Virus record (IMG/VR): IMGVR_UViG_3300042525_000901
Location: 1 to 64,000 of that record
Source: a virus
Length of the DNA: 64,000 nt
Strand: one strand, 5' to 3'
The notes under the pieces were generated by a model. It was not told where the DNA came from, did no database searches, and saw only the letters and a program-made list of their open reading frames with translations. This document shows positions 3,308 to 63,577 of this stretch, piece by piece; within the stretch, counting starts at the first letter, position 1, and every line of letters begins with the position of its first letter. The position numbers and the translations under genes are program-made.

Positions 3308-3410
3308 AAAACGGCTGTAGCGTTTGCCCTGTAAATGTTTGGGCTGTTTTGAAAGCGTGCCACGTGATGGCATTACCCCTATAAAAGAAGATTACATGGT
3401 GCACGTGGTA
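3308..3410 (-). repeat. CACGTG repeat element, copy 1
   Basis: Minus-strand copy of the nine-member element. The right arm CACGTGGCAC lies at 3358-3367 and the ACAGCCG box at 3308-3318, exactly 38 bp apart. The far arm at about 3401-3410 is degenerate. It fills the gap between the 3416-4261 gene and the start of the 2585-3268 gene. Confidence 0.85.
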
Positions 3411-3415
3411 GAGAG

Positions 3416-4763: not shown

Positions 4764-5224
4764 TGCCTCAAAAACGCCCTGAGAATCCAGACCTGCAACA
4801 GGCGGCGCGTGCCTTAGCCTATGCCGAACTGTACGACGATCGCGCGGCTACGACGGCGTGCGGATGCGATCGCGCGTCGCTGACCCGGTGGCGTGCTAAG
4901 TACCAGCTTGAGCAGGCGGGCGGGTCGGAATTCTCAGAGGCGTTTTACCATTGGCAGCAGCAATTCTCATCACCGGGCGAGACGGTCAAACGAGCGACGA
5001 TCGCCACCAATAAGTTACTCGACACGATCGCCGCGTTTGCTGATCGGGTACAGGGTGACCCTGAATCAGTGCCAGCCGAGATGATGGTCGCGTGTGGTCG
5101 GACACTGGATTACGTGCGGGCAACCGAACGTCAAGCCTCGCAGACAGCGGCATTGGAGCCGCTACGACGCAAGGTGATTACGAAGCAATTAGAATTAGAG
5201 CTGACCATCAGTGGCGATTCGTGA
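4763..5224 (+). CDS. Putative terminase small subunit
   Basis: 153 residues. The N-terminal third holds a helix-turn-helix-like segment (ALAYAELYDDRAATTACGCD then SLTRWRAKY), followed by helices that could oligomerise. Length, position directly before the large terminase and a 14-bp overlap with it all fit a small terminase that recognises the packaging site. The family match is inferred from context; sequence alone would only say DNA-binding helical protein. Confidence 0.55.
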   Translation: MPQKRPENPDLQQAARALAYAELYDDRAATTACGCDRASLTRWRAKYQLEQAGGSEFSEAFYHWQQQFSSPGETVKRATIATNKLLDTIAAFADRVQGDPESVPAEMMVACGRTLDYVRATERQASQTAALEPLRRKVITKQLELELTISGDS

Positions 5225-6212
5225 GTATGGCGATCTCCTGAAGGATGTCCTACCCGATCGCGAGTTCCGGGAACTGGTAGACGCGATCATGGCAGAAGCC
5301 GACGCGGTTGAAGCGGATCGATTTCAGGTTGAACCGGAACCCATTGACGTTCCCGATAACTGGGTGGACTTTGCGCGATCGTGCGTCGTGCGTTCAGGTC
5401 ATGGCACGGTTGGCTTTGATCCGTTCCCGTTCCAAATTGCCTTGGTGGATACCTTTACCAAAAACCGAGGCACGGTGGTGTTGAAGACCCGACAACAGGG
5501 CATCTCCGAAACGTGCTGGATTTGGTTTCTGTGGAAGGCGTGTCGATTCCCCGGCTACACGGCGGCGCTGTTCTCGAAACGGAAGGAAGACACCAGCGAC
5601 TTGGCGCGACGGGTTCGGCTTGCATTGGCGGGCTTGGGCGTGCAATTGGCGTCGGACAACCTCATGACGATCGAGTTGCCCAACCGCTCAAAGCTATTGT
5701 TTCGGACTGCCCGCAAATCAGACGGGCGGGGTATTGCCTCGGTATGGGATCTCCTGTTTGATGAGGCGGCGTTTGTGCCGGATATCGAAGAAATTTATGG
5801 CGGTGCGGTTCCGTCGCAATCGATGCTGGGCGATCGCGCTCGTACGTTGGTTGTGTCAACTCCCGATAGCCCGTCGGGTTGGTATTACGATTTGCTCAAC
5901 ACCGGCAATGGCGATCGCGAAATCGAGGCGGTGTGCCAACAAATCCGCAATCAGGCAGTTGAGCCGTTCCAAGTCTGGACAGACGAGAACGGGTGGGGGA
6001 AGGCGATATTGCATTGGCGAGCGCATCCCATCTACGGAAAGCAAGACGACTACCTGGAACGTGTGGCAAGAAATATGCGCTTGCCAATGTCAACGGTGCG
6101 GCGTGAGTACGACTTGGACTTTGGGCAGTCTGACCGATCGGTGTTTGGCGTTGACCTCGTGAAGCGGGCGCTCGTGATGGATGGCGACGCTGTTGAGTTT
6201 GATGAGTGGTAG
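5211..6212 (+). CDS. terL: Terminase large subunit, ATPase half
   Basis: GTG start at 5211. The 333 residues include the packaging ATPase domain: adenine-binding region near FQIALVDTF, Walker A variant KTRQQGIS around residues 93-100, Walker B LLFDEA around 181-186, and the C-motif VVSTPDSPSG. It stops at DAVEFDEW, just where a normal large terminase would continue into its nuclease domain. The nuclease half is a separate ORF at 8081. The stop codon TAG at 6210-6212 is also the first half of the -10 box TAGAAT of the inserted KilA-N cassette. Either two polypeptides assemble, or the insertion disabled the gene. Confidence 0.9.
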   Translation: MAIREYGDLLKDVLPDREFRELVDAIMAEADAVEADRFQVEPEPIDVPDNWVDFARSCVVRSGHGTVGFDPFPFQIALVDTFTKNRGTVVLKTRQQGISETCWIWFLWKACRFPGYTAALFSKRKEDTSDLARRVRLALAGLGVQLASDNLMTIELPNRSKLLFRTARKSDGRGIASVWDLLFDEAAFVPDIEEIYGGAVPSQSMLGDRARTLVVSTPDSPSGWYYDLLNTGNGDREIEAVCQQIRNQAVEPFQVWTDENGWGKAILHWRAHPIYGKQDDYLERVARNMRLPMSTVRREYDLDFGQSDRSVFGVDLVKRALVMDGDAVEFDEW

Positions 6213-6302
6213 AATGGGGATACTAAAAAGCCCGGTCGCATGGGGACGTTAGCGCGTCCGACCATCACCGGGGGTATCTCGCTCTACCGGGGCGAAACAC
6301 AC
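6210..6302 (+). promoter_or_regulatory. Extended -10 promoter and structured leader, cassette 1
   Basis: TGGTAGAAT is an extended -10 with TAGAAT at 6210-6215. The transcript would begin almost directly with nested stems: GATAC 6219-6223 with GTATC 6274-6278, CCCGGT 6231-6236 with ACCGGG 6267-6272, and an inner hairpin GGACG 6244-6248 with CGTCC 6255-6259 around a 6-nt loop. The leader ends at the KilA-N start. Three other accessory genes have the same architecture with different sequence. Confidence 0.65.
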
Positions 6303-7007
6303 ATGAATTCTAGCAAATCACTGTCGCACAATCTATGCGGGGTTGCTGTTTCCCAAAGCTTTGGAGATGGTTACGTCAATGTGACTCAACTCAGCAAGGC
6401 TTATTTTGAATCGACGGGCAAACGCCGTCAGCCAAATGACTGGCTGCGATTAGAGCGAACGAAAGAGACCTTGGAGCATCTTTCCTCCGTTACGGGGATT
6501 CCCGTAACGGCGCTAGTACGGACGGTTCAGGGTGGTAACGACCTGTCTGCACAGGGAACCTACTTACACCCACGGCTATCGATCCGTTTCGGAATCTGGC
6601 TGTCGGATGAGTTCGGCTTTGCGGTTGAACAGTTTATCTCGCAATGGTCGTCAGAGTTTGGCGACTTTATCCAGACTCGTGACAAAGGCAAGCTGATCCG
6701 CCGATCAACTACCGACGCAATCCAAAACGCGGGCTTTACGGAGCATTATCATTACATCAACGCAACCCAAGTTGTTTACCGATCTCTCTTTGGAAAGACG
6801 GCGAAGGAACTGAAGAAAGACTTAGGCTTGAGCGATCGCGAAAGCTTGCGTGACTCAATGGACGCTCATGATTTACGAATGGTTGAAATGATGGAGTATC
6901 GCCTAGAGAAAGAGCTGGCAAAGGGCGTCCATAAAACGTACTCGGATTTTCATGCAGCCGCGAAACTCATTGGCGAAAATATCAAGACTGCAATGACGAT
7001 TGATTAA
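6303..7007 (+). CDS. KilA-N domain protein
   Basis: 234 residues from the ATG at 6303; an upstream ATG at 6240 falls inside the leader hairpin and is less likely. The N-terminal 110 residues are a KilA-N DNA-binding domain: GDGYVNVTQLSKAYFESTGK, WLRLERTKE, VQGGNDLSAQGTYLHPRLSI and IWLSDEFGFAVEQFI. The C-terminal region (about 120-230) resembles the helical domain often attached to phage antirepressors. Such proteins regulate phage genes or act as antirepressors. It splits the terminase gene, has its own promoter and leader, and ends in a terminator. A 24-bp palindrome lies in the coding sequence at 6487-6510. Confidence 0.85.
   Translation: MNSSKSLSHNLCGVAVSQSFGDGYVNVTQLSKAYFESTGKRRQPNDWLRLERTKETLEHLSSVTGIPVTALVRTVQGGNDLSAQGTYLHPRLSIRFGIWLSDEFGFAVEQFISQWSSEFGDFIQTRDKGKLIRRSTTDAIQNAGFTEHYHYINATQVVYRSLFGKTAKELKKDLGLSDRESLRDSMDAHDLRMVEMMEYRLEKELAKGVHKTYSDFHAAAKLIGENIKTAMTID
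6487..6510. promoter_or_regulatory. Conserved palindrome inside the KilA-N gene
   Basis: CCGTTACGGG and CCCGTAACGG are perfect 10-bp inverted arms around GATT. The homologous place in the second KilA-N gene (57070-57093) is also palindromic, with compensated base changes. It may be a binding site or an RNA hairpin. Confidence 0.6.
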
Positions 7008-7034
7008 TTAGGCGATCGCTCTGATGTAGTTTAT

Positions 7035-7057
7035 GCCCCGTCATTTTGGCGGGGTTT
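7035..7057 (+). terminator. Hairpin terminator after KilA-N gene
   Basis: CCCCG and CGGGG pair around TCATTTTGG and are followed by TTTC. The T run is short. The hairpin sits between the KilA-N stop and the next gene's start. Confidence 0.6.
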
Positions 7058-7065
7058 CAAAAGAA

Positions 7066-7971
7066 ATGTCCAAACAGAAGAAAAATACCCTTCGTCTTGT
7101 GGCAAAAGAGGCTAGCGCGATTGCAAATCGCAACGAGCTTCAAGTAAAACCTTTTCACCGTAAATACGAAACGCTTCGCAAAGCCTTTGTTTCTAATCAA
7201 GGCAACATAAAAATGCAAGCTCCAAACGGGCAAGGTGTACGCATCCTCTCTCGATTCCATTTCAAAGAAACACCTTTAAATTTTGCGTCGCATTTTGAGC
7301 CTTTTTTTCTTTTACTTGCGCTTGCTTATGACATCAGAGAAAAACCTAACTGTGTTCTTGTCGGAGACGAAGCTGACTGTTACCGAGCCATAGAGGTGGT
7401 GGCTCAAGATTGCCTGGAGATAGGCATGTCTTCCCCCTCTTATGCCCGTCCATTGACAACACCAACGATAGGAATTGATCAAACTACAGCAGATCTTTTA
7501 TTTCAAACAGACTTGCCACGGGATTTTTCGAGAACAAAAATCCCGTGGGAATATGGGATTATTTTTTTTGATAAACGGTGTCATAATAGCCGATTTCAAG
7601 ACTTTCCTTGCTGGATTGCGTTTTCTGCTACGGGGAAAAACCTTATTGCCTACAATGAGCTAACCTCTCAATCTGTTGTTATTGATTACCAAAAATCAGG
7701 GCGGAACCGACCTCTGACAATACTAGCCCCTAGCCTTGATGGTGAAATACTTTTTGCTAATGCAGACATAGAAACATCAAGTCCTGATGATCTCAACTGT
7801 GGCAAAAGTAAGCCTGTCGTTACGCTTGAGGATGAATATTTCCTGTTTTGTCGTCGGCTACTAGGCAACGTTTTTGCTATGGCTAACGCATACCCTACGG
7901 ATAAGTCCGCATCACCAACCTCCTTAATATCTTTCAATCTCAGTTCCAAACAAAGTCAACTCAATGGATAA
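7066..7971 (+). CDS. Unknown accessory protein, AT-rich
   Basis: 301 residues from the ATG at 7066. I recognise no domain. The N-terminus is basic (SKQKKNTLRLVAKEAS). The middle has alternating hydrophobic strands (NCVLVGDEADCYRAIEVVAQDC, WEYGIIFFDKR, CWIAFSATGKN), suggesting an alpha/beta fold. Base composition is clearly more AT-rich than the surrounding phage genes and it contains almost no GCGATCGC sites, both signs of recent acquisition. It lies with the KilA-N gene between the two terminase halves, a typical place for a moron. A defence or host-interaction role is possible but unproven. Confidence 0.6.
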   Translation: MSKQKKNTLRLVAKEASAIANRNELQVKPFHRKYETLRKAFVSNQGNIKMQAPNGQGVRILSRFHFKETPLNFASHFEPFFLLLALAYDIREKPNCVLVGDEADCYRAIEVVAQDCLEIGMSSPSYARPLTTPTIGIDQTTADLLFQTDLPRDFSRTKIPWEYGIIFFDKRCHNSRFQDFPCWIAFSATGKNLIAYNELTSQSVVIDYQKSGRNRPLTILAPSLDGEILFANADIETSSPDDLNCGKSKPVVTLEDEYFLFCRRLLGNVFAMANAYPTDKSASPTSLISFNLSSKQSQLNG

Positions 7972-8080: not shown

Positions 8081-8680
8081 ATGCCCACCGAAACGATCGC
8101 CTCACTCGACTGTGCCACCAGCGGCGCGGACTACCTCGTGTTCCTGGTAGGCCGCGTCACCAGCGAAGGCGTCAAAGTCATCGCCAAATTCAGACGCCAA
8201 AAGGTCACGATGACCGAGGCGATCGCGACGATCGCAGCGATGACAGCCCGCTACGAAATTTCGCGCATCGTCGTCGAAACCACCGGTGGCGTAGGCGAAC
8301 TCTACCGCCAACAGCTCATCGAACGCAGCGATATTCGTGCCGGTATCATCGGCTTCAACACCACGGCACAATCCAAGCCGATCGCGATCGAGCGGCTAGC
8401 CCTCTTCCTAGAGCGCGGTTGGCTGCAAATCTCCGACCCGCAAATCGCCGATGAGCTAAAGGCATTCCAGCGAAACGGACGCAAGCTTGAGGCCGCGTCG
8501 GGTAAGCACGACGACACGGTCATGGCGCTCGCGTTCCTCGTGTCGATTGTGGAGATCGACCGGCTTCAGTATGGCGATCGTGATCCGACGTCCCTTCGGT
8601 TTTTCGCGACCGAACCCAAGCGATACGAGTCCGTGCCCGAGGCTCGCAACGAATTTCGCAGCATGTTTGGAGGCGATTAA
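8081..8680 (+). CDS. terL: Terminase large subunit, nuclease half
   Basis: 199 residues forming an RNase H-like terminase nuclease. The first acidic strand is IASLDCATSG (Asp10), a second acidic position follows IVVET around residue 68, and the third site is the HDDTVMALAF motif around 143-152. A normal large terminase carries this after the ATPase domain; here the ATPase half ends at 6212 and 1868 bp of inserted DNA separate them. The reading frame upstream of the ATG is open for only about a dozen codons. The catalytic residues are intact, so the split protein may still work in trans. Confidence 0.88.
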   Translation: MPTETIASLDCATSGADYLVFLVGRVTSEGVKVIAKFRRQKVTMTEAIATIAAMTARYEISRIVVETTGGVGELYRQQLIERSDIRAGIIGFNTTAQSKPIAIERLALFLERGWLQISDPQIADELKAFQRNGRKLEAASGKHDDTVMALAFLVSIVEIDRLQYGDRDPTSLRFFATEPKRYESVPEARNEFRSMFGGD

Positions 8681-11672: not shown

Positions 11673-11777
11673 GTGCCACGTGCACCACATAATATCTTTT
11701 ATATAAGGGTAAGGTCATCACGTGGCACGACGCCAAAAACGCCCAATCCTTTACCATTCATTCGTTACAGCCGTTTT
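11673..11777 (+). repeat. CACGTG repeat element, copy 2
   Basis: The most perfect arms of the family: GTGCCACGTG (11673-11682) and CACGTGGCAC (11719-11728), 36 bp apart, then 38 bp, then ACAGCCGTTTT at 11767. It lies between the start of the hub gene and the end of the next minus-strand gene, whose stop codon it overlaps. Confidence 0.9.
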
Positions 11778-13514: not shown

Positions 13515-13515
13515 T

Positions 13516-13619
13516 CTGCCACGTGCACCATGTAATCTTCTTTTATAGGGGTAATGCCATCACGTGGCACGCTTCCAAAATCCCCGCACATTCGACCCCG
13601 TAAACGTTACAGCCATTCT
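13516..13619 (+). repeat. CACGTG repeat element, copy 3
   Basis: CTGCCACGTG (13516-13525) and CACGTGGCAC (13561-13570), 35 bp apart, then 38 bp, then ACAGCCATTC at 13609. It lies in the gap before the spike gene at 13631. Confidence 0.9.
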
Positions 13620-15753: not shown

Positions 15754-15810
15754 TACCACAGCGAAAACACCCGGATCTTGTAGGACGATCCGGGTATTTT
15801 CGCTGTGGTA
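15754..15810. terminator. Long inverted repeat, terminator overlapping the next promoter
   Basis: A 24-bp arm at 15754-15777 and its complement at 15787-15810 differ at one position and are separated by 9 bp. The core is ACCCGGATC with GATCCGGGT, bounded by AAAA and TTTT. The right arm contains the TGG of the next extended -10 box. It can end transcription of the AIPR-like gene. Confidence 0.75.
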
Positions 15811-15903
15811 AAATGATGGAGTATTTTGATCGCCTAGCCAGGTGCTACCAACACCCGGCATTACCAAGACGATCTTCCTGCGTGAACACACCACGCAATC
15901 AAC
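15807..15903 (+). promoter_or_regulatory. Extended -10 promoter and structured leader, cassette 3
   Basis: TGGTAAAAT with TAAAAT at 15809-15814. The outer stem GATCGCC 15828-15834 pairs with GACGATC 15868-15874 with one mismatch. The inner hairpin is CCAGGTG 15838-15844 with CACCCGG 15852-15858. GCATTACCAA separates the two stems, as in cassette 4. Confidence 0.7.
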
Positions 15904-16419
15904 ATGAGTATATCAAAATCGCAGCGCGAAACCGTCCGGTTCTTTGACGGACTTTCTATCGATGGCTACATGATGCCAGATGGAAGCTTTCGAGTTTCCA
16001 TGAGTGGGGCGAGCATCTTGATGGGTTTCGCTCCAAACTGGCTTGGACGATTAATAAGCCGGGGTGGTACAAACCTCAAAGCCTTACAGGGTTTAGGTTT
16101 CAGCGGACAAACCGAGGAAACTGGTACATTTGCAGGAAAACCAGCTCAGACCATTAGCCTTAAGGATTTTCAGCGACTTCTCTTGTTTGGAGTGCAAGCG
16201 GGTAAGCCCCAAGCGATCGCCCTTCAAATGGCGCTGTCTGATATGGCGCTTGGGGATTTCTTTCGAGACGCTTTCGGGTTGCGTGCGCTATCAATCGAAG
16301 AAAAACGAGCGAAGTTTTACCAGGCATTCGCCGCAACACTCACTCGTCAAGATTGGCTCGACTGGGATCGTGGTGACGTTGAAGAGCTGGAAGACCATGC
16401 TCGCTTTTTAGGAGCCTAG
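15904..16419 (+). CDS. Phage regulatory or antirepressor-like protein
   Basis: 171 residues. The layout is an N-terminal VRFFDGLSIDGYMMPDGSFR strand region, a helix with GASILMGFAPNWLGR, a glycine-rich LQGLGFSG turn, and a helical part with SLKDFQRLLLFG and LGDFFRDAFG. This pattern resembles a family of cyanobacterial hypothetical proteins and phage antirepressors that I know only by general appearance. Its leader is almost the same as that of the second KilA-N gene, pointing to shared regulation. The next gene starts 4 bp after its stop, so the two form an operon. Confidence 0.6.
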   Translation: MSISKSQRETVRFFDGLSIDGYMMPDGSFRVSMSGASILMGFAPNWLGRLISRGGTNLKALQGLGFSGQTEETGTFAGKPAQTISLKDFQRLLLFGVQAGKPQAIALQMALSDMALGDFFRDAFGLRALSIEEKRAKFYQAFAATLTRQDWLDWDRGDVEELEDHARFLGA

Positions 16420-21465: not shown

Positions 21466-23073
21466 ATGGCCAAGATTGAGCGGACGATTCCTTGGGGTAA
21501 CGGAAGCGACGTGGCGTGCGCTCCGATTTACGCGCGTCTCCCTGCGTACAACCGAGGCTACCGACGTTGGGGCGAAACGGAAGACGCCGATAATATCGCC
21601 AATGGTGAGGTGTCGCGATGGTTGACGATCGCAACGGATGAGCTTCTGTGCGAGCTGAAGGGCGATGTCACGGGGTTCTACGAAAACTATCTCGACCCGG
21701 AAACAGCTCGATCTGATGCACTCGATTGGCTTGCGATGCACCTCGGCTTCTCTGGTCAGTTTTGGCGTGCGGAATGGCCTGACGAAGTGAAGCGCGAAGT
21801 CCTAAAGCTGGGTGATGAGGCTTGGATCGGGCGTGGCTCCATCGACAAAATTGACACGCTGCTAGAAACCATCGGCGTCATCACCTGTGCCGATGTTTGG
21901 CCGCTTAATGATACGGGACATCGTTCATATCGGTTGCCGTGGTTACGAGCCGATTTAGGCACTGCTGATAACTATTGGCGAGCTGATAACACCCACTACT
22001 TTATTCGTCTGCCGCTGACGACGAAACGCGGTGATGAGACATGGCAGTACGCAAAATGGATCGTGGACGGGTTTACTCCGGTCGGTGCGGTTGGTGTGCC
22101 GTGCTTCTGCAACTTCTACCCGGACAAATCCCACGCTGACGATCCGATCTTCGATGAAGTGTGGGAACAATCACGACCGATGGTCGATACATTCTGGGAT
22201 GGTCGCGAGCCAAGCGATCGCCCTGACCTCGATTTTGCTGCGCTTCTAGAGTACCTAATCGCCGAGTTTGGTATCACCGCCCAGATTGTCACGCGAGAGC
22301 CGTTCCTGGCTGACGTGACGACCGCTGATAGCCGATTTGTTGATATTGGCTGGTGGGGACATCCGTTCCCTGAAAATGCGTCAGGCGCGATCGGGACTCG
22401 AACCAATTACGAACCGGCTCCCAACGTGTTCGTGGTATTTCCAACTTTGGTAACGTTTCGCGATGACACATGGGAAACAGTCAAGCGGTTAATCGAGCTG
22501 TACCGACCTTACGAGTATTTCGATCCGCTCGCCATGATCGGCCACGGCGTGTTCTTGCCTGAGTTGAGTCATGCTAACGCTCCGATGCTTTGGGATGAAC
22601 CGGCGGATGAACAGTTGTGGCAAGACGCTAACGACGCGGTGAAAGCGTACTGGCTTGCCAATCCATTTGAGGTGGGCGATCGTCAAGACCTCGCGTTCGG
22701 CTATCTCCTGAAGGCGGTGCTAACCGCGCTGGACTTGCCTGGACAAATCGCCGTCTACGACCCTGCGATATTTGAGACGGGATGGTCGGGGCATCCGGAT
22801 CAGGCGAACGCATCAGGGAGCGTTGGCACTCGATCCAATTACGAACCAGCTCCGAATGTGTTTGTGATTTTCCCCGAGGCGATCGCGGTCGGTGACGAAA
22901 CTTGGGAAAGCGTGAAGCAAATCGTCTACTGGTTCCGCCCTTACGACTTCTATCATCCCGACTACATGCTCGGATACGGAATCGAATATCCCGATCGCCT
23001 CACGCCTACGATGCCAGTCTTGACCACTGATCCGACCCTGGGTGACGTGCCGATTATCTCTTCCAACCCCTGA
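21466..23073 (+). CDS. Tail protein I-like with three internal repeats
   Basis: 535 residues from the ATG at 21466. The N-terminal 150 residues resemble P2 gpI / Mu gp48 tail-tip proteins (LDWLAMHLGFSGQFWRAEWPD). The rest contains three copies of a roughly 75-residue block, seen as YWRADNTHYF-type, then GHPFPENASGAIGTRTNYEP, and GHPDQANASGSVGTRSNYEP, each followed by VFVVFP or VFVIFP and ETWE or ESVK. The duplicated blocks share APNVFV. It could bind fibres or receptors. It ends just before repeat copy 4 and the iteron array. Confidence 0.7.
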   Translation: MAKIERTIPWGNGSDVACAPIYARLPAYNRGYRRWGETEDADNIANGEVSRWLTIATDELLCELKGDVTGFYENYLDPETARSDALDWLAMHLGFSGQFWRAEWPDEVKREVLKLGDEAWIGRGSIDKIDTLLETIGVITCADVWPLNDTGHRSYRLPWLRADLGTADNYWRADNTHYFIRLPLTTKRGDETWQYAKWIVDGFTPVGAVGVPCFCNFYPDKSHADDPIFDEVWEQSRPMVDTFWDGREPSDRPDLDFAALLEYLIAEFGITAQIVTREPFLADVTTADSRFVDIGWWGHPFPENASGAIGTRTNYEPAPNVFVVFPTLVTFRDDTWETVKRLIELYRPYEYFDPLAMIGHGVFLPELSHANAPMLWDEPADEQLWQDANDAVKAYWLANPFEVGDRQDLAFGYLLKAVLTALDLPGQIAVYDPAIFETGWSGHPDQANASGSVGTRSNYEPAPNVFVIFPEAIAVGDETWESVKQIVYWFRPYDFYHPDYMLGYGIEYPDRLTPTMPVLTTDPTLGDVPIISSNP

Positions 23074-23113
23074 GAGGATTGAAGTGTGTTGCCACAATCC
23101 TACTGCGATTATC

Positions 23114-23217
23114 TAGCCACGTGCACCATGTAATTCTTTTATATAGGGGTAATGCCATCACGTGGCACGCTTCCAAAATCGCCGGAACGCTTACAGTATA
23201 AAAGCTACAGCCGTTTG
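23114..23217 (+). repeat. CACGTG repeat element, copy 4
   Basis: TAGCCACGTG (23114-23123) and CACGTGGCAC (23159-23168), 35 bp apart, then 38 bp, then ACAGCCGTTT at 23207. It opens the gene-free block that contains iteron array A. Confidence 0.9.
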
Positions 23218-23280
23218 CCGGGTCGCACCGAGGCCGTTCCCTCTCGCCTGGGAAAACTGCCCAAATTTACCCCAAATAAT

Positions 23281-23520
23281 TGCAGGATTTTGCAGGATTT
23301 TTCCGGGAAATTTGCGCTTATCCTGCGCTGACGATTGCGCTTTGCCTGCGCCAACGATTGCGCCAAGCCTGCGATCAACTTGAGACAGCCCTGCACATTG
23401 ATTGCGCGATCGCTGCATCTTGCCTGCGATGTTGGTGCGCTCTGATTGCGCTTTCGGTTACGTTCACTATTGCGCGATCGTTTGCGCTTTAGAGATCCAG
23501 GGTTCGGCGATTTTGTCAAT
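23281..23520. repeat. Phased iteron array A
   Basis: Sixteen units from 23313 to 23492, most starting TGCG, at strict 11- or 12-bp spacing (5 of 15 steps are 12). Examples are TGCGCTTATCC, TGCGCTGACGAT, TGCGCTTTGCC and TGCGCGATCGC. Two TGCAGGATTT copies precede it (23281-23300). The end is TTTGCGCTTTAG, then GATCCAG and GATTTTGTCAAT near 23509-23520. The apparent ORFs over it have no coding character. Confidence 0.85.
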
Positions 23521-23525
23521 AGCCA

Positions 23526-23554
23526 CAAAAAAAACGCCGCTGGTGTTGCGGCGT
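23526..23554 (-). terminator. Minus-strand terminator
   Basis: GCGGCGT region and ACGCCGC form a 7-bp stem with a 7-nt loop; on the minus strand it is followed by eight T. It ends the operon that runs down from 24262 to 23577. Confidence 0.85.
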
Positions 23555-26305: not shown

Positions 26306-26333
26306 TACTCAACTCCTGGCTTGTGTATGCCGC

Positions 26334-34668: not shown

Positions 34669-35250
34669 TTATGCGAGCTTAGAAAACGAGATTCGCTCCC
34701 ATGCCGGTCGCCCGAGGTCGTTAGGTTCAAGGCATGTTTTGCACGTAACGACGTTATCGCCCACGACTACGCTGACGCGACCTAGTGCATCAGGAACGTC
34801 TCTCAGGGCGGAAAGCAACTCTTGGCATTCGGAGTGCCACCGAATGTGTATTTCGCTCCAGTCGTAATCGATTGCGTCGGGCGGGATTTTGTACCCTGAC
34901 GCAATCAATTCGTTCGCTGTGTTGAGGACTTTTTCAGCTAAAGTTTGGAGGTGACTGGGTTTACTCATGACTGCATCCCGCGATTCTATCGACAGGTTCG
35001 ACTCGATGCGATTTACCGCGTCAAGGATAGCCACCACCTGCTCTTTGATGGAGTCGATAGAATCGGCGGGTCTGAGATCTTGGCCACCTTTAGCGAAGAG
35101 GACTTCGACGCCGTGCGCTAGCCCTACCCGAAGAACGTCAGCAAGGCTTAGATCTTTTTCTCGTGCAACTTTTTCGACGATACCCATCGTCGTCTTTGTT
35201 AAAGTTACGCTCAGTCGTTCGGTCTTAAGTTCGCGATTTCGGGCTGTCAT
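34669..35250 (-). CDS. Ribbon-helix-helix DNA-binding protein, candidate array binder
   Basis: 193 residues from the ATG at 35250 (AAGGAG ribosome binding site); the frame extends upstream but a start there lacks one. The N-terminal 55 residues look like a ribbon-helix-helix domain: a strand RLSVTLTKT, then helices IVEKVAREKDLSLADVLRVGLAHGVEVL. The C-terminal part has two helical regions and a strand with VVTCKTCLEP. Such proteins bind short tandem sites as dimers. It is a candidate binder of the 11-bp iterons, but only by family logic; no evidence of contact is in the sequence. Confidence 0.6.
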   Translation of the reverse strand: MTARNRELKTERLSVTLTKTTMGIVEKVAREKDLSLADVLRVGLAHGVEVLFAKGGQDLRPADSIDSIKEQVVAILDAVNRIESNLSIESRDAVMSKPSHLQTLAEKVLNTANELIASGYKIPPDAIDYDWSEIHIRWHSECQELLSALRDVPDALGRVSVVVGDNVVTCKTCLEPNDLGRPAWERISFSKLA

Positions 35251-38701: not shown

Positions 38702-41700
38702 CTACATGGCGAACATGCGAACAGCGGACGAGACTTTGACTGGCTGGCCGTTCCCGTCTGTTAGCGTGCCTAGGTGAGGCCAGAACAATGCCGTCCCTAG
38801 CTGCATGGTTCCATCTTCGTGATGCGTGAATGTGCGCGTGTAATCAGCGTGTGGCGTTGATTCAGTCGGCAGGACGGTGCTGATGGTCGTTGCGAACTCG
38901 ATTATCTCGCCTTCCGGTGTGGTTAGTGTTCCGAGGTTCGCATCAGGATGAGCAATTTTCCATGATTTCGCCTTGTCGTCCCAAGCCCAAACCCAATCGA
39001 CATTAGCTAGCCATGCGATCCATGTAATACCTTTTATATAGGGGTAAGTGGTTGACGTGGCACGCTCTGCAATCGGCTGTGATTCACTTGCTGTAACCGT
39101 TTCAGCCGATCCAACTGGTTCGTCGTCGTTGGATTCGTCCGGGGTGATATATTCCTGGTAAGCAGCCTCAAAACGCTTCTGGATTGCGACAACGGTTTCC
39201 CCTTCAAATTTGTCTTCACTGAACCCGTACATCGTGGGTTCGCCTTTCTTCCCACGCGATTTGCGGGTGGGGTTGTAGCCCAGGAATCGAAGGCAAGCAT
39301 GAAGGAAACGAAGCGAATCACGGCGCACTGAAACACCAAAAGCGAGATCTACAAGGCTGCGTTGTTCGCGAGTTAGCGAGCCGTACCAAGCGTCAACATC
39401 GTCGCGAGTCCAGTCTTCCGATCTTTCAACCCATTGCATCAAATCAATCTCGGATAGCGCTTTGACTTTGAGGGTCATAAATCCCCAGTCAAACAAGAGG
39501 GTTTGCGATCGGTCGTAGGTTCGCAGGCGCTTGGCATCATTCACGAGAGCGTAAGACGGATTGAGAAACGCGACGCGCAATTCAATGCGACGTAGGTAAG
39601 CGCGATCGTCATGCCGCACCAAGCGGACGAACTCGGGTGTAATCTCGCGACCGGGAACACGATCTTGCAGTAGCGACTTTTGAGCGCTGTAACGCAATCC
39701 AGGATCAACGCAATCACGACGTAGAATCTCTAGTGCGTCTTCACGGTTAAGGCCGCCCGGTGCGTCCGCTTCACGCGCGGCCTCGGCATCAATAATTTCG
39801 TCTGCTACGGCTTGACGATCCTCTTCGATTTCGTCGTCCCGTTCGGCCATGATTTTGGTGATAGTTTTGCCGTCGGCTTCCAGCGATTCGTATAGGTTGC
39901 CTGCGAGATCAAACTTGGAGCAGTTGGCCGATGCCGTGTACTCACACCACGCCGTGAGCCACGGGTGAGAGTAGCGCTTCGTCACCGGATCAAACAGGCG
40001 CATCATGTTCGCTTGGTGGATTTCGTCAGGGCCTAGCCCGTGAGGTAGGCCATAGCGAGAATACTCAAGAATCGCGTGCAAGTTTTCGCGATTCACTTCC
40101 GACTGGCGCGACTCCAGTACGGACACAAACGGGCTGTGAGCCGCGTAGGTTTGGCCGCCGATCGCGTTGACAGCGATGAAGCGCTCAACCGGCACGCGGT
40201 AGCGACCGAGCATCTGTAGCGCGGCTTGGTGGGTTGTCTCGCCGCCCTGGAATAGGGCGTACACCCGATCAAAGTAGGGAACGGTGATCGACAATCCCGA
40301 CTCAACCGAGGGCGAGCACAAATAGAAATCGTAGTCGTGAGCCAGGATGAAAGCGTCAGGATCTTGGATGAACTTTTGGGCAAGTTCCTGTAGCTCTTTC
40401 CCGTGATCGCCACTCAATACTTTGGAGTCGATGCGTAAAGTTTTCGCGCCAAACGACTTGACTAAAAGCTCCTCAATTGAATGCAGCCAGATCCGTGATG
40501 ACGATTGAATCAGGCATTTTTTGCGATCAGCAGCGGCAGAGAGTAAGTGCGTTTGCAGTGCCTCGTCACAGCCGGTACGAGTTGCTTTCCCGTTCGAGCC
40601 GATTGACCCATCAAACCAGGTGACGGGATAAGCGATCGCGGTGTCGTATTTATTGACGTGCGCGTGAGCCTTGAACTCCTGAGAGGCGATCGCACGCACG
40701 GTGCGGACTGATTTTGATGACGCGGCTGCATCAGCAAGAATGATGTGACGATTGCCTCGAAACAGCTCGCCCATCAATCCAAGGATTTCGCAACGGTCAT
40801 TGGCGTTGATGGTTCCGCCCAGCAGTGCGTGGGGGAACACCGACTCGCATTCGTCAATGAAGACGATTGTGTTTTCGTGACTGCTACCGTCCCACCACGG
40901 CATTTCCAATTTTTTTAGGGAATCAGCGCAGAGGAACATGACGCGAGAGTTTCGCATCTGATCCAAACTGGCATCAGCTAAAACAGTCGAGCCAAACTCT
41001 GATAGACGCTCAACCGTTTGGCGGCCAAGAGCGTTGCGGTATCCGATGACTAGCACTCGCAGTGTTGAGTCTTCTCGTAACCACTGAGCAAGCAATTCTG
41101 TCTTGCCTGTCCCCATCGGAGACTTGACTACGGTAACGCCCTTTTGACGCGGTAGGGCGATCGCACTTGACGAAAGGTAGCGGAGTTCGTGCTCGGTTGT
41201 AGGGATATCATCAAGCCCGTCTAGTCGCCGCATTTCGCGCTTGACCTTTTCTGTGAGAATTCGCTTGCGAACATCGCGTCGGGTTTGCCCTGGTTCCCGA
41301 CGCGATTCAACGTCATCAGCATCCAACACGCAGTTGGCGAACCACGTGTCTACGTCAACGAACTTGATTGAGCTTTTGGCCGCCGGGGTCTGATTCAGGA
41401 GATCGTCATAATCAAAGCGAGATTTGTCATACCCGTGACCCCAATCGGCGATCGTGACCTCTTCCGATGCTGCATCCAGAATCGTCAGCGTCTTCCAGTC
41501 CCGCTTGGCAACCCCCGAGTTAACGAGCGAACCCGCGTCTGGGTAAAACACGACTGGTAGCTTTTGCCCCGCCATTTTGCGGATCTCTTCAATCTCGCTC
41601 ATCAGCCATGCAGGGCTGTTGAAGAACTGGCCACCGAAGCAGCCGACGAACACTGTCTCACCATCGAGATGGGCTGAGTAAAACGGTTTCCCTGTGCCTT

Positions 41701-42433
41701 CGATTAGACCAATACGCTTGACGCGCGATCGGTCAGCAGGCCAGCACACCGTCAGCGGTTGCTCACCTGTTTCCTTGAGGTGCGGTGTCGGTGCGTTCGG
41801 GCGTTTCTTCGTGGTGCTGGAAAGGTGCTTGTACTTGCCCCCGCGCTTGTCGTTCATCGCAATCTCGAACGCGAGGATTTGACCTCGTGCGGAGAGCTTG
41901 GGCAGGATGTAGCCCGAGCCGGGAGTGATTAGGCAATCACCGTCGATCGAGACTCCGGGCAAATTCGGATTTGTCGGGCGCACCTTTTGCCATTGAGCCA
42001 CGGTGCGGAACCCAGCCTGAAATGCGATTTCCCAGGAAATACCACGACGCTTCATTTCGTCGCGATGCGCTTGCGACAATTGCAGATTGGCAATGATGTC
42101 ACGGTAAAGCGAATCGCGTTCTGAAGTCGGCAGGGCGATCGCCTGACGCGCGGATTCTGTTTCCAGTACTTTTTCTCGGTTCTGGCGTCGCGATTCCGCC
42201 CAGTCGCGTTTGCGTTGCTCAATCTCTTCAGGAGATAGTGCGTTTTCATCTTTGAGCAGAACGCGAGTGATGCCAGTTGTGTCCTCACAGTCCCAACACA
42301 TGAAACCGCCTTGCCCAACGGTTAGCTTGCCATCGCACAACGGGCAGTGGTATGCGTGCTTCAGCCCCCGTGGGTGAGACTCCGAGACGTAGGGTTGCAG
42401 CTCAACCAGTCGATCTGATAGAATATTAGACAT
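38702..42433 (-). CDS. CyRepA1-like plasmid replication protein
   Basis: 1243 residues. N-terminal zinc finger (Cys30, Cys33, Cys46, Cys49: CPLCDGKLTV and FMCWDC). A toprim-like DUF3854-type part has VVFYPDAGSLVNSGV around 290-310. A central helicase has Walker A SPMGTGKTELL around residue 437, the acidic motif FIDECESVF around 527 and ILADAA around 565. Resemblance to the CyRepA1 family of cyanobacterial plasmid Rep proteins is by overall layout; I cannot run a search. The C-terminal 140 residues include the repeat element inside the frame (39008-39112). Ribosome binding site AGGAGG. Confidence 0.75.
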   Translation of the reverse strand: MSNILSDRLVELQPYVSESHPRGLKHAYHCPLCDGKLTVGQGGFMCWDCEDTTGITRVLLKDENALSPEEIEQRKRDWAESRRQNREKVLETESARQAIALPTSERDSLYRDIIANLQLSQAHRDEMKRRGISWEIAFQAGFRTVAQWQKVRPTNPNLPGVSIDGDCLITPGSGYILPKLSARGQILAFEIAMNDKRGGKYKHLSSTTKKRPNAPTPHLKETGEQPLTVCWPADRSRVKRIGLIEGTGKPFYSAHLDGETVFVGCFGGQFFNSPAWLMSEIEEIRKMAGQKLPVVFYPDAGSLVNSGVAKRDWKTLTILDAASEEVTIADWGHGYDKSRFDYDDLLNQTPAAKSSIKFVDVDTWFANCVLDADDVESRREPGQTRRDVRKRILTEKVKREMRRLDGLDDIPTTEHELRYLSSSAIALPRQKGVTVVKSPMGTGKTELLAQWLREDSTLRVLVIGYRNALGRQTVERLSEFGSTVLADASLDQMRNSRVMFLCADSLKKLEMPWWDGSSHENTIVFIDECESVFPHALLGGTINANDRCEILGLMGELFRGNRHIILADAAASSKSVRTVRAIASQEFKAHAHVNKYDTAIAYPVTWFDGSIGSNGKATRTGCDEALQTHLLSAAADRKKCLIQSSSRIWLHSIEELLVKSFGAKTLRIDSKVLSGDHGKELQELAQKFIQDPDAFILAHDYDFYLCSPSVESGLSITVPYFDRVYALFQGGETTHQAALQMLGRYRVPVERFIAVNAIGGQTYAAHSPFVSVLESRQSEVNRENLHAILEYSRYGLPHGLGPDEIHQANMMRLFDPVTKRYSHPWLTAWCEYTASANCSKFDLAGNLYESLEADGKTITKIMAERDDEIEEDRQAVADEIIDAEAAREADAPGGLNREDALEILRRDCVDPGLRYSAQKSLLQDRVPGREITPEFVRLVRHDDRAYLRRIELRVAFLNPSYALVNDAKRLRTYDRSQTLLFDWGFMTLKVKALSEIDLMQWVERSEDWTRDDVDAWYGSLTREQRSLVDLAFGVSVRRDSLRFLHACLRFLGYNPTRKSRGKKGEPTMYGFSEDKFEGETVVAIQKRFEAAYQEYITPDESNDDEPVGSAETVTASESQPIAERATSTTYPYIKGITWIAWLANVDWVWAWDDKAKSWKIAHPDANLGTLTTPEGEIIEFATTISTVLPTESTPHADYTRTFTHHEDGTMQLGTALFWPHLGTLTDGNGQPVKVSSAVRMFAM
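39008..39112 (+). repeat. CACGTG repeat element, copy 5, inside the Rep gene
   Basis: The element lies in a coding frame on the opposite strand. The left arm is degenerate (TAGCCATGCG at 39008-39017); the right arm GACGTGGCAC is at 39054-39063, 36 bp away; then 38 bp, then TCAGCCG at 39102. It encodes Rep residues of about 1107-1142 (RATSTTYPYIKGITWIAW region) without stop codons. Confidence 0.75.
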
Positions 42434-46878: not shown

Positions 46879-46980
46879 AAAAACGTTAGACAGCTTGAGG
46901 CGTAAGCAGCGCAGCCATTTTAGCTTTGTGCCACGTGAACCACTTACCCTTATATAAAGGTATATACGTGTCATGGCAGA
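46879..46980 (-). repeat. CACGTG repeat element, copy 6
   Basis: Minus-strand copy. GTGCCACGTG on the plus strand (46928-46937) is the conserved arm; 38 bp away is a diverged ACAGCCG-like box (CTAACGTTTT on the minus strand). The other arm is degenerate near 46966-46980. It sits between two divergent genes, 46734 and 47011. Confidence 0.75.
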
Positions 46981-56776: not shown

Positions 56777-57256
56777 TCAATCGTATGGAGTCACGTCATC
56801 CATTGCCGCGTCCCATGAGTTTTGGCGATGCCAAAGCATATCCCGGCGCAGTTCGTCGCGATTGTACTCGGATTGATTGAGCGCGTGCTTGAGTGAAGAC
56901 AACTCTTCCTGTAGTTCGACTTTGCCTTGGGTTAGCAGTTTCTCGATCATGGAGTAAACCCAAACCTCGAACGCAGCATTAAGCCACGCAGCCAGTTTTA
57001 AGGCGACTCGCGGATGAACCCATGTACCTTGCAGTTGCGGCGTACCACCTTGAACTTGCTGGATCAATTCCGTTATGGGAATTCCCATAACGGGCGAAAG
57101 TGCCTCTAGGTAAGCCTTTGTGGATTTCAATCGAAGAAAGTCAGCAAACAATCGACCATGACGCTGACACATTTCTGTTGCGTTCCAGTACCCATCAGAA
57201 CGAATGGTGATGGGTTTGCCGCTGTCGAAATACTCGCGAAAAACTGATAAACTCAT
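56777..57256 (-). CDS. Second KilA-N domain protein
   Basis: 159 residues. The KilA-N core is clear: ITIRSDGYWNATEMCQRHGRLFADFLRL, TKAYLEALSPVMGIPITEL, then QLQGTWVHPRVALKLAAWL. A C-terminal coiled coil (VELQEELSSLKHALNQSEYN) may dimerise it. It shares the IQQVQGGTPQ/VQGG motif and the internal palindrome with the 6303 gene, so the two are related. It lies in a minus-strand insertion between tail chaperone and tape measure. Confidence 0.85.
   Translation of the reverse strand: MSLSVFREYFDSGKPITIRSDGYWNATEMCQRHGRLFADFLRLKSTKAYLEALSPVMGIPITELIQQVQGGTPQLQGTWVHPRVALKLAAWLNAAFEVWVYSMIEKLLTQGKVELQEELSSLKHALNQSEYNRDELRRDMLWHRQNSWDAAMDDVTPYD
57070..57093. promoter_or_regulatory. Conserved palindrome inside the second KilA-N gene
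   Basis: CCGTTATGGG and CCCATAACGG are perfect inverted arms around AATT. Compared with the first KilA-N gene, the C-G pair is a T-A pair in both arms. Confidence 0.6.
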
Positions 57257-57352
57257 ATTGATTGCGTGGTTGGTACACGCATGACGATCGCCTTGGTAAT
57301 GCCGGATGCTGTCAACATCTGGCTAGGCGATCAAATACTTCATAATTTTACC
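57257..57352 (-). promoter_or_regulatory. Extended -10 promoter and structured leader, cassette 4
   Basis: On the minus strand TGGTAAAAT gives TAAAAT at 57345-57350. Outer stem GATCGCC with GGCGATC is perfect; inner hairpin is CCAGATG with CATCCGG. GCATTACCAA separates them as in cassette 3. Confidence 0.7.
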
Positions 57353-57408
57353 ACGACTTCCAGCAGGGTAAAACCCTATCTAGCTTGGGCAGAAGATTCC
57401 CCATATTT

Positions 57409-58443: not shown

Positions 58444-58504
58444 GTTTTGATTGAAATTCGGGGTGATTTTTAGGGGTCGCGCCAGTTGTGCTGAAAATCC
58501 CAGA

Positions 58505-58608
58505 GGATCGGCCAGGACGTTTGCTGCGTAAATGCTTGAGCGATTTCGAGGGTGTGCCACGTGAACCCTTTACCCCTATATAAAAGAATTACATGGTGCA
58601 TGTGGCAA
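58505..58608 (-). repeat. CACGTG repeat element, copy 7
   Basis: GTGCCACGTG on the plus strand (58554-58563) and CATGTGGCAA (58599-58608), 35 bp apart; 38 bp beyond the first arm lies a diverged ACAGCCG-like box (CTGGCCG on the minus strand). It separates the divergent genes 58394 and 58649. Confidence 0.8.
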
Positions 58609-59397: not shown

Positions 59398-59415
59398 TTC
59401 GTGGCCACAAATTCA

Positions 59416-59519
59416 AAAACGGCTGTGACGTAATCACCCAAAGCGTCACAGCCGTTTTCTATGCCTGCCACGTGACCTCATTACCCTTATATAAAAGAAT
59501 TACATGGTGCATGTGGATC
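59416..59519 (-). repeat. CACGTG repeat element, copy 8, with extra hairpin
   Basis: CTGCCACGTG (59465-59474) and CATGTGGATC (59510-59519), 35 bp apart; AAAACGGCTGT lies at 59416-59426, exactly 38 bp from the first arm. A second inverted copy of the ACAGCCG box (59448-59456) makes a hairpin in the 38-bp spacer that could act as a terminator. Confidence 0.85.
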
Positions 59520-62723: not shown

Positions 62724-62727
62724 CTTT

Positions 62728-62831
62728 CTGCCACGTGCACCATGTAATCTTCTTTTATAGGGGGAAAGGCATCACGTGGCACGCTTCCAAAATCGCTCAA
62801 AGATTCACGCTACAAACGTTACAGCCGTTTC
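62728..62831 (+). repeat. CACGTG repeat element, copy 9
   Basis: CTGCCACGTG (62728-62737) and CACGTGGCAC (62773-62782), 35 bp apart, then 38 bp, then ACAGCCGTTT at 62821. As with copy 4, it opens a gene-free block with an iteron array. Confidence 0.9.
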
Positions 62832-62893: not shown

Positions 62894-63105
62894 TGGGCAT
62901 ATCTTGAGATCCGGGTTGCGCTTTCCCCGCGATCTCGTTTGCGCTTTGGGTGCGTTTTGGCTGCGCTCATCTTGCGATCTGATTGCGCGATCGCCGCGAA
63001 CGAGTTGCGCTTGTCCTGCGTTTTTGTTGCGCGATCGGTTGCGTTCACCATTGCGTGATTGTTTGCGCTTTAGCGATCCAGCCTGTCGCCATTTTGTCAA
63101 TCCCA
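62894..63105. repeat. Phased iteron array B
   Basis: Fourteen units from 62917 to 63074, with two degenerate ones before (62894, 62905), at 11- or 12-bp spacing. Examples are TGCGCTTTGGG, TGCGTTTTGGC, TGCGCGATCGC and TGCGCTTTAGC. The last three steps before the final unit are 12 bp, as in array A. It ends in GATCCAG, CGCCATTTTGTCAAT. No coding character. Confidence 0.85.
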
Positions 63106-63115
63106 ATCAAAAACC

Positions 63116-63577
63116 ATGACTCAACTTTTCCCAGAACCCGGCAGAACAATCCACGACATCGCCGCGATCGCCGGTATCGATTGGCGAGTCATCGCGGAAC
63201 AAAACGATTTGGATTTGTTCGCAGAACTGCCGATCAATTCCGAAATCCCTCTTGATGTACCGTCGGTGTTGGAGGCGATCACGCCTGCGTTACCGGTGCT
63301 TTCAAGTGTGGGTAACACAGTGCGGACGGTGTCGAGCCAAGCCAAAGGTATTTTGTCCCGAGTGTCGGGTGTGGCAAACCAAATCGCTGATGTGTTGCCA
63401 CCTAGCTTGAAGGGGTACGTTTCGCCCGCGCTGGATGCGATCGCGTCAGTCAACGGAGTCATTGACAACGTGACTAGCGATATTGATTCGTTTTTGTCAG
63501 GAGGTGGCGCAAACCAAAACAGCCGCACGTACAATGGTGCGGCTGTGAGATTAATTGATTGGATGTTTAGTCGCTAG
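63116..63577 (+). CDS. LysM-like tail or baseplate protein
   Basis: 153 residues. The N-terminal 50 resemble a LysM domain (TIHDIAAIAGIDWRVIAEQNDLD), often found in tail hub or baseplate proteins. The rest is low-complexity helical, and the last part is Gly-Asn rich. It follows the tape measure and would form the tail tip or bind the wall. A hairpin at its 3' end (63521-63544) lies in coding DNA and may act as terminator for the opposite gene. Confidence 0.55.
   Translation: MTQLFPEPGRTIHDIAAIAGIDWRVIAEQNDLDLFAELPINSEIPLDVPSVLEAITPALPVLSSVGNTVRTVSSQAKGILSRVSGVANQIADVLPPSLKGYVSPALDAIASVNGVIDNVTSDIDSFLSGGGANQNSRTYNGAAVRLIDWMFSR
63516..63546 (-). terminator. Minus-strand hairpin at the end of gene 63574
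   Basis: AGCCGCAC and GTGCGGCT form an 8-bp stem with an 8-nt loop; on the minus strand it is followed by GTTTTGG. It overlaps the 3' end of the plus-strand gene. Confidence 0.65.

Follow-up and report, generated by a model that had tools for sequence, protein, structure and literature searches.

The window, i.e. the whole stretch of DNA that was analysed, comprises bases 1-64,000 of a viral record of 65,707 bp. Judged from its structural proteins, the virus groups with myophages of filamentous cyanobacteria: its sheath protein stands at about 32-40% to those of the Nostoc/Anabaena phages YongM, A-1(L), N1, Elbi and YongM2, and of Leptolyngbya phage Lbo402-yong5. By gene content, the nearest cellular contig is from Oculatella sp. 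LEGE 06141. The large terminase is encoded in two parts, at 5211-6212 (N-terminal) and 8081-8680 (C-terminal), and the insert that splits it (6240-7971) holds a KilA-N gene and a gene of no known function. A GGDEF-EAL (cyclic-di-GMP) protein is encoded at 655-2337, close to the record end. Two further repeats were seen: a 111-bp inverted repeat, 85% identical (15805-15915 and 57245-57354), whose copies lie where a short gene (15904) and a KilA-N gene (57256) begin, and an early-promoter-like motif found at 26316, 33387, 34551, 38617, 45400 and 58421, several minus-strand copies of which read TTGTGTATAAT.

The elements under study are two arrays of short repeats, A and B, with their surroundings:

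23113..23216, plus strand: D1 dyad repeat (GCCACGTG...CTTTTATATAGGGGTAA...CACGTGGC), about 100 bp upstream of array A
23250..23325, no strand: A+T-rich stretch at the 5' edge of array A (60-62% AT, 98-99th percentile of the record)
23313..23493, plus strand: array A, 16 TGCG-type units spaced by 11 or 12 bp (mean 11.33)
23494..23522, plus strand: 3' boundary of array A, GATCCAG...ATTTTGTCAAT, conserved in the A/B alignment
23534..23554, minus strand: hairpin resembling a terminator, for the early minus-strand transcript; array A lies beyond it
62727..62830, plus strand: D1 dyad repeat, about 75 bp upstream of array B
62905..63074, plus strand: array B, 15 TGCG-type units in steps of 12, 11, 12, eight times 11, 12, 12 and 12
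63075..63103, plus strand: 3' boundary of array B, GATCCAG...ATTTTGTCAAT, conserved in the A/B alignment

Array A occupies a convergent gap between a tail gene (end at 23073) and early minus-strand genes, so placed that neither strand has an adjoining gene start. The tail gene directly upstream contains an internal duplication (22340-22442 and 22772-22874, 71% identical). ORFs overlapping the array are all short and without support; the sequence-only reading had described the array as gene-free. Units start at 23313, 23324, 23336, 23347, 23359, 23370, 23381, 23392, 23403, 23414, 23425, 23436, 23447, 23459, 23471 and 23483. Twelve of the 16 are exact TGCG, the others being TGCA (2), TGAG (1) and TACG (1), and the steps run 11, 12, 11, 12, eight times 11, 12, 12, 12. 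Our recount of ten 11s and five 12s, totalling 170 bp, agrees exactly with the earlier one. One contig of the same phage (3300035663_000126, 20,972 bp) stops within array A at 23334, which suggests either an assembly break or strain variation.

The shuffle check proposed with the first description gave a clear answer: when 200 bp were shuffled 5000 times at constant dinucleotide composition, with the same four motifs allowed, the longest chain counted 4 units, versus 16 in the real sequence. Among chains of any tetramer over the whole record, the best phased one was again TGCG, with 12 units (one missing unit allowed), versus at most 5 for any tetramer in 20 genomes generated by an order-4 Markov model.

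When the record was queried with array A, a match was returned at 62980-63081. It belongs to array B, which the earlier reading had missed. Array B is carried by the same strand at a distance of 39.6 kb and sits in the leader of the gene at 63116, with the tape-measure gene on its other side. No further phased TGCG run of at least 3 units was found on either strand of the whole 65,707-bp record. The two arrays are in direct orientation and 66% identical overall. All 14 spacings of array B equal the final 14 spacings of array A. Compared unit by unit, the cores are identical at 53 of 60 positions (88%), against 57 of 110 (52%) for the spacers (Fisher p=9e-7). Spacers are near random except in the four 3'-end units and two others, while zero steps are altered. 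The resulting consensus is YTGCGH, followed by T-rich sequence. Since steps and cores are kept while spacers have diverged, selection appears to bear on protein contacts and on register, and we conclude from this comparison of sequences that core and register are under selection. The initial proposal that phase is conserved and the rest of the unit drifts is thereby borne out.

Could these arrays be a tandem duplication product, or chance, with no selected function? 23-bp duplications are indeed present in the 5' half of array A, but the chain statistics and the retention of core and register over diverged spacers oppose this view, which we consider very improbable. A coding repeat was rejected as well (11 is not divisible by 3, and none of the ORFs has support), as was an RNA element (no Rfam match, and weak folding, with z of -1.1 and -2.0). 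With weak RNA folding and no supported gene in either array, selection acts on the DNA itself. Altogether, A and B are very probably sites for an oligomerising, sequence-specific DNA-binding protein, and the A/B comparison lends strong support to the general idea that protein-binding sites are arrayed here in phase. The idea that the units face one side of the helix needs qualification: the register is near-helical, but at 10.5 bp per turn a mean of 11.33 bp per unit rotates each site by +29 degrees relative to the previous one, i.e. by about 430 degrees across the array, so that one face is only an approximation. Given this drift, a spiral complex would be the better fit.

Whether relatives keep the phasing had been put forward as a decisive point. 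The paralogue B does keep it; across genomes, no array-bearing relative was found, neither by distant blastn of the region against phages and plasmids, which returned no array homologue, nor among the sheath-protein relatives. Apparent arrays in two loci (L104 and L102) turned out to be a repeat within coding sequence and a perfect tandem repeat, and the 78 contigs with a looser pattern, in which no D1 element was seen, are not relatives. In Nostoc-type phages we found a noncoding element of 0.4-0.7 kb, present in two inverted copies 96-100% identical, which has been noted without function in Elbi, A-1 and N-1 (PMC8297451). Its motif is GTTACA in A-1(L), YongM, Dfl-JY23 and Elbi, and CAAGAC in N1. 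In the 504-bp inverted repeats of Elbi, four TTTGTAACG follow each other at 12, 12 and 11 bp, a spacing met in 0 of 500 random placements; one relative thus has a phased array of another motif, and the other relatives do not clearly have one. Like arrays A and B, these elements are noncoding, rich in a short motif and present in two copies per genome. In contrast, the arrays studied here are direct, 66% identical, built on another motif and placed at another location.

The D1 repeat forms a family of nine copies in the window, in both orientations, with the pattern GCCACGTG...CTTTTATATARGGGTAA...CACGTGGC and a TATA-like centre. Copies 4 and 9 are those listed above next to arrays A and B, and the seven others are the following:

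3309-3412, minus strand: D1 copy 1
11673-11776, plus strand: D1 copy 2
13515-13618, plus strand: D1 copy 3
39003-39100, plus strand: D1 copy 5
46890-46975, minus strand: D1 copy 6
58502-58608, minus strand: D1 copy 7
59412-59519, minus strand: D1 copy 8

All are intergenic, bar one weak copy within the rep gene. Among viral contigs, the pattern occurs only in those 100% identical to this phage, and none was found in cellular genomes. D1 is possibly a late promoter or a regulator site. Array and upstream dyad might together act on late genes as an enhancer, an operator or a 'stoperator' to which a phage regulator binds. The D1 repeat that, with its TATA-like centre, precedes each array by some 75-100 bp, and the location of array B in the leader of gene 63116, would suit such a control of transcription; moreover, the relatives A-1 and N-1 have 43 and 21 intergenic motifs that have been discussed as promoters or stoperators (PMC4916379). 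However, only two of the nine D1 copies have an array downstream, array A has no gene start next to it, and fifteen phased sites would be a large number for an operator. We hold this reading to be rather unlikely.

A further comparison was made with unrelated viruses. Viral contigs were scanned strictly for five TGCG at exactly 11 bp, which gave at least 80 loci, a sample. Among the matches listed, the array is spanned by an ORF of 100 to 700 aa at 67 of 80 loci. For the 80 ORFs from these 67 loci, the named families listed, counted by PHROG family over partly homologous loci, are primosomal, DnaD-like loader and O-like, all of replication initiation. BLAST clustering placed 36 of the 67 ORF-covered loci, among the matches listed, in one homologous initiator group, with a primosomal-type protein as its first member; as they largely form one homologous family, the viral initiator loci are not independent events. 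With a looser pattern, replication initiators were met at L006, L017, L047 and L074, and at L075 the array lies within a TerS-type gene. The 60 ORFs of this looser set include replication-initiation, primosomal and loader families with 2-4 members each, and head protein with 6. Among the 25 families listed for 60 control ORFs, which were taken at these same looser-pattern loci and hence come from a different scan than the strict one, there was no replication-initiator family. Among the loci of the strict scan, arrays of the TTTGCGATCG type, at 11/12 bp, were seen inside initiator genes of many unrelated viruses (L157, L177, L186, L190, L127 and others), and TGCG arrays in initiator genes may possibly be a general marker of viral origins.

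The arrays in O-like, DnaD-like and primosomal genes resemble A and B by their TGCG core, by their confinement to one strand and by their 11/12-bp spacing. They mostly count 5-9 units with variable spacers, e.g. TTTGCGATCGCTTTGCGATCCG, whereas the phage arrays are intergenic, 15-16 units long and present in two copies, and the TGCG-carrying initiator family was not found in this phage. Likewise, compared with iteron-type origins, repeated sites in helical register are present in A and B, and binding by an initiator would be presumed, but neither array is at or in an initiator gene. Among the functions first proposed for the array, an origin nevertheless has the most comparative support, owing to these viral arrays.

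The second argument for replication is a replication protein encoded by the phage itself. Two proteins are candidate partners of the arrays:

38702..42433, minus strand: CyRepA1-family replication protein, 1243 aa, with a Herpes_ori_bp-like helicase domain
34669..35250, minus strand: candidate RHH (CopG-like) protein, weakly indicated

The first matches NF042913 (E=4e-74, 250.5 bits for a cut-off of 200), and its helicase similarity is of the origin-binding type. It is a cyanobacterial plasmid-type Rep inside a tailed-phage genome. No integrase domain was found in the record, in a search whose controls matched, so that the phage is possibly an episome. Replication initiation leads because of the viral comparison and of this type of Rep, and we tentatively propose, on sequence grounds, that the array complex may serve initiation of phage DNA replication, giving this somewhat less than an even chance. 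The A+T-rich stretch flanking array A contains a 10-bp direct repeat, TTGCAGGATT, and is a possible candidate for an unwinding element. On the other hand, the A+T-rich flank is upstream in array A and downstream in array B, no DnaA box was found near the arrays, and GC skew gave no clear signal of an origin.

The replication reading is weakened by the distance from rep, which lies 15 and 20 kb from the arrays and adjoins neither, and by a scan of plasmids. Eight CyRepA1 plasmid regions were scanned blind, for any tetramer at 10-12 bp. Seven had no phased array, which indicates that such arrays are not a general feature of CyRepA1 origins. In pSYSA, with which the phage shares the Rep family, no phased iterons were detected around rep; its origin is upstream of CyRepA1 and involves two small RNAs (PMC9978351, PMC10899382), and the word 'iteron' is absent from both papers, which describe no phased iterons. 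In the eighth region, on Crinalium pCRI9333.04, CAGGA-type repeats at 10-11 bp (L118:27112-27180) lie directly upstream of parM and are likely parC, which shows that the blind scan was able to find parC-like sites.

This last case gives some comparative support to a partition centromere, another function suggested at the outset, in which an RHH-type adaptor on the 11/12-bp repeats of an episomal (phage-plasmid) prophage would build a ParR/parC-like solenoid, moved by a filament or motor. ParR is typically an RHH protein, and its sites are direct repeats, at least two of 11 bp in R1 and two of 10 bp in pB171 (PMC9426499). Several direct repeats at 10-11 bp, thought to seed a solenoid, are common to R1, pB171 and pCRI9333.04 and recall the phage arrays; that the sole phased array among the eight CyRepA1 plasmid regions scanned is a parC-like one, and that the phage combines a plasmid-type Rep with no integrase match and a CopG-like candidate, adds to the resemblance. 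In these systems, however, parC is upstream of parM, whereas A and B have a different motif and no adjoining par operon, their neighbours being tail and early phage genes. ParA and ParB domains were not detected in the record, which is possibly incomplete (controls matched), nor were homologues of the Crinalium plasmid ParM and ParR-position proteins in the phage; the ParM family search matched 0 controls. As to the RHH partner suggested by the sequence-only reading, the 34669 protein matched no RHH family in Pfam, PHROGs or NCBIfam, and RHH_1 gave nothing at E<=1. It remains plausible, its best PDB sequence match being CopG (E=0.48) and the top Foldseek match of its AlphaFold model (pLDDT 51) being CopG-DNA (E=0.3), but it is weak, and its gene is 11 kb from array A. 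We regard partition as doubtful.

Packaging was also considered, in the form of a pac-like recognition site on which a ring of small terminase assembles. HTH motifs are arranged in a circle on TerS rings, direct repeats occur in the pac site of SPP1 (PMC4737164), and one viral TGCG array, that of L075, lies within a TerS-type gene. Yet SPP1 pac is at terS, while the likely terS of this phage (4763-5224, by its position directly before the N-terminal part of TerL) is 18 kb from A and more than 7 kb from B. In addition, the DNA-binding domains of SF6 TerS are little sequence-specific (PMC4737164), and a single pac site would not be expected in two copies separated by 39.6 kb. Such a role appears improbable.

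We therefore retain replication as the working model. Arrays A and B would be two copies of a cis-acting multi-iteron site, on which a phage-encoded DNA-binding protein would touch YTGCGH cores at intervals of about one helix turn, 15-16 times running. Side-by-side assembly of this binder would yield a spiral nucleoprotein complex, acting as an origin or as a site for initiator loading and replication control. Its probable partner would be the CyRepA1, origin-binding-type Rep, or else an accessory binder, for example the RHH-like 34669 protein, and the two copies would provide two sites of initiation or handcuffing per genome. In a bolder version, to which we give a low probability, the two arrays, each preceded by its dyad, would be paired loading or handcuffing sites of a CyRepA1 phage-plasmid, a single spiral complex ensuring both replication control and segregation without known par genes; they would then represent a novel class of cyanophage site for maintenance or origin function.

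Phased iterons are already known as a kind of site. What is new here is the length of the array, its two paralogous copies of equal spacing, the association with a dyad repeat found at dispersed sites, and the occurrence in a cyanophage that encodes a CyRepA1 Rep. In phages of filamentous cyanobacteria, origins, segregation sites and packaging sites are poorly known. Paralogous arrays in which core and register are kept while the rest drifts offer a clean, testable model of a binding site, and TGCG at 11 bp, as a mark of replication-initiator genes in many unrelated viruses, would permit candidate viral origins to be spotted cheaply.
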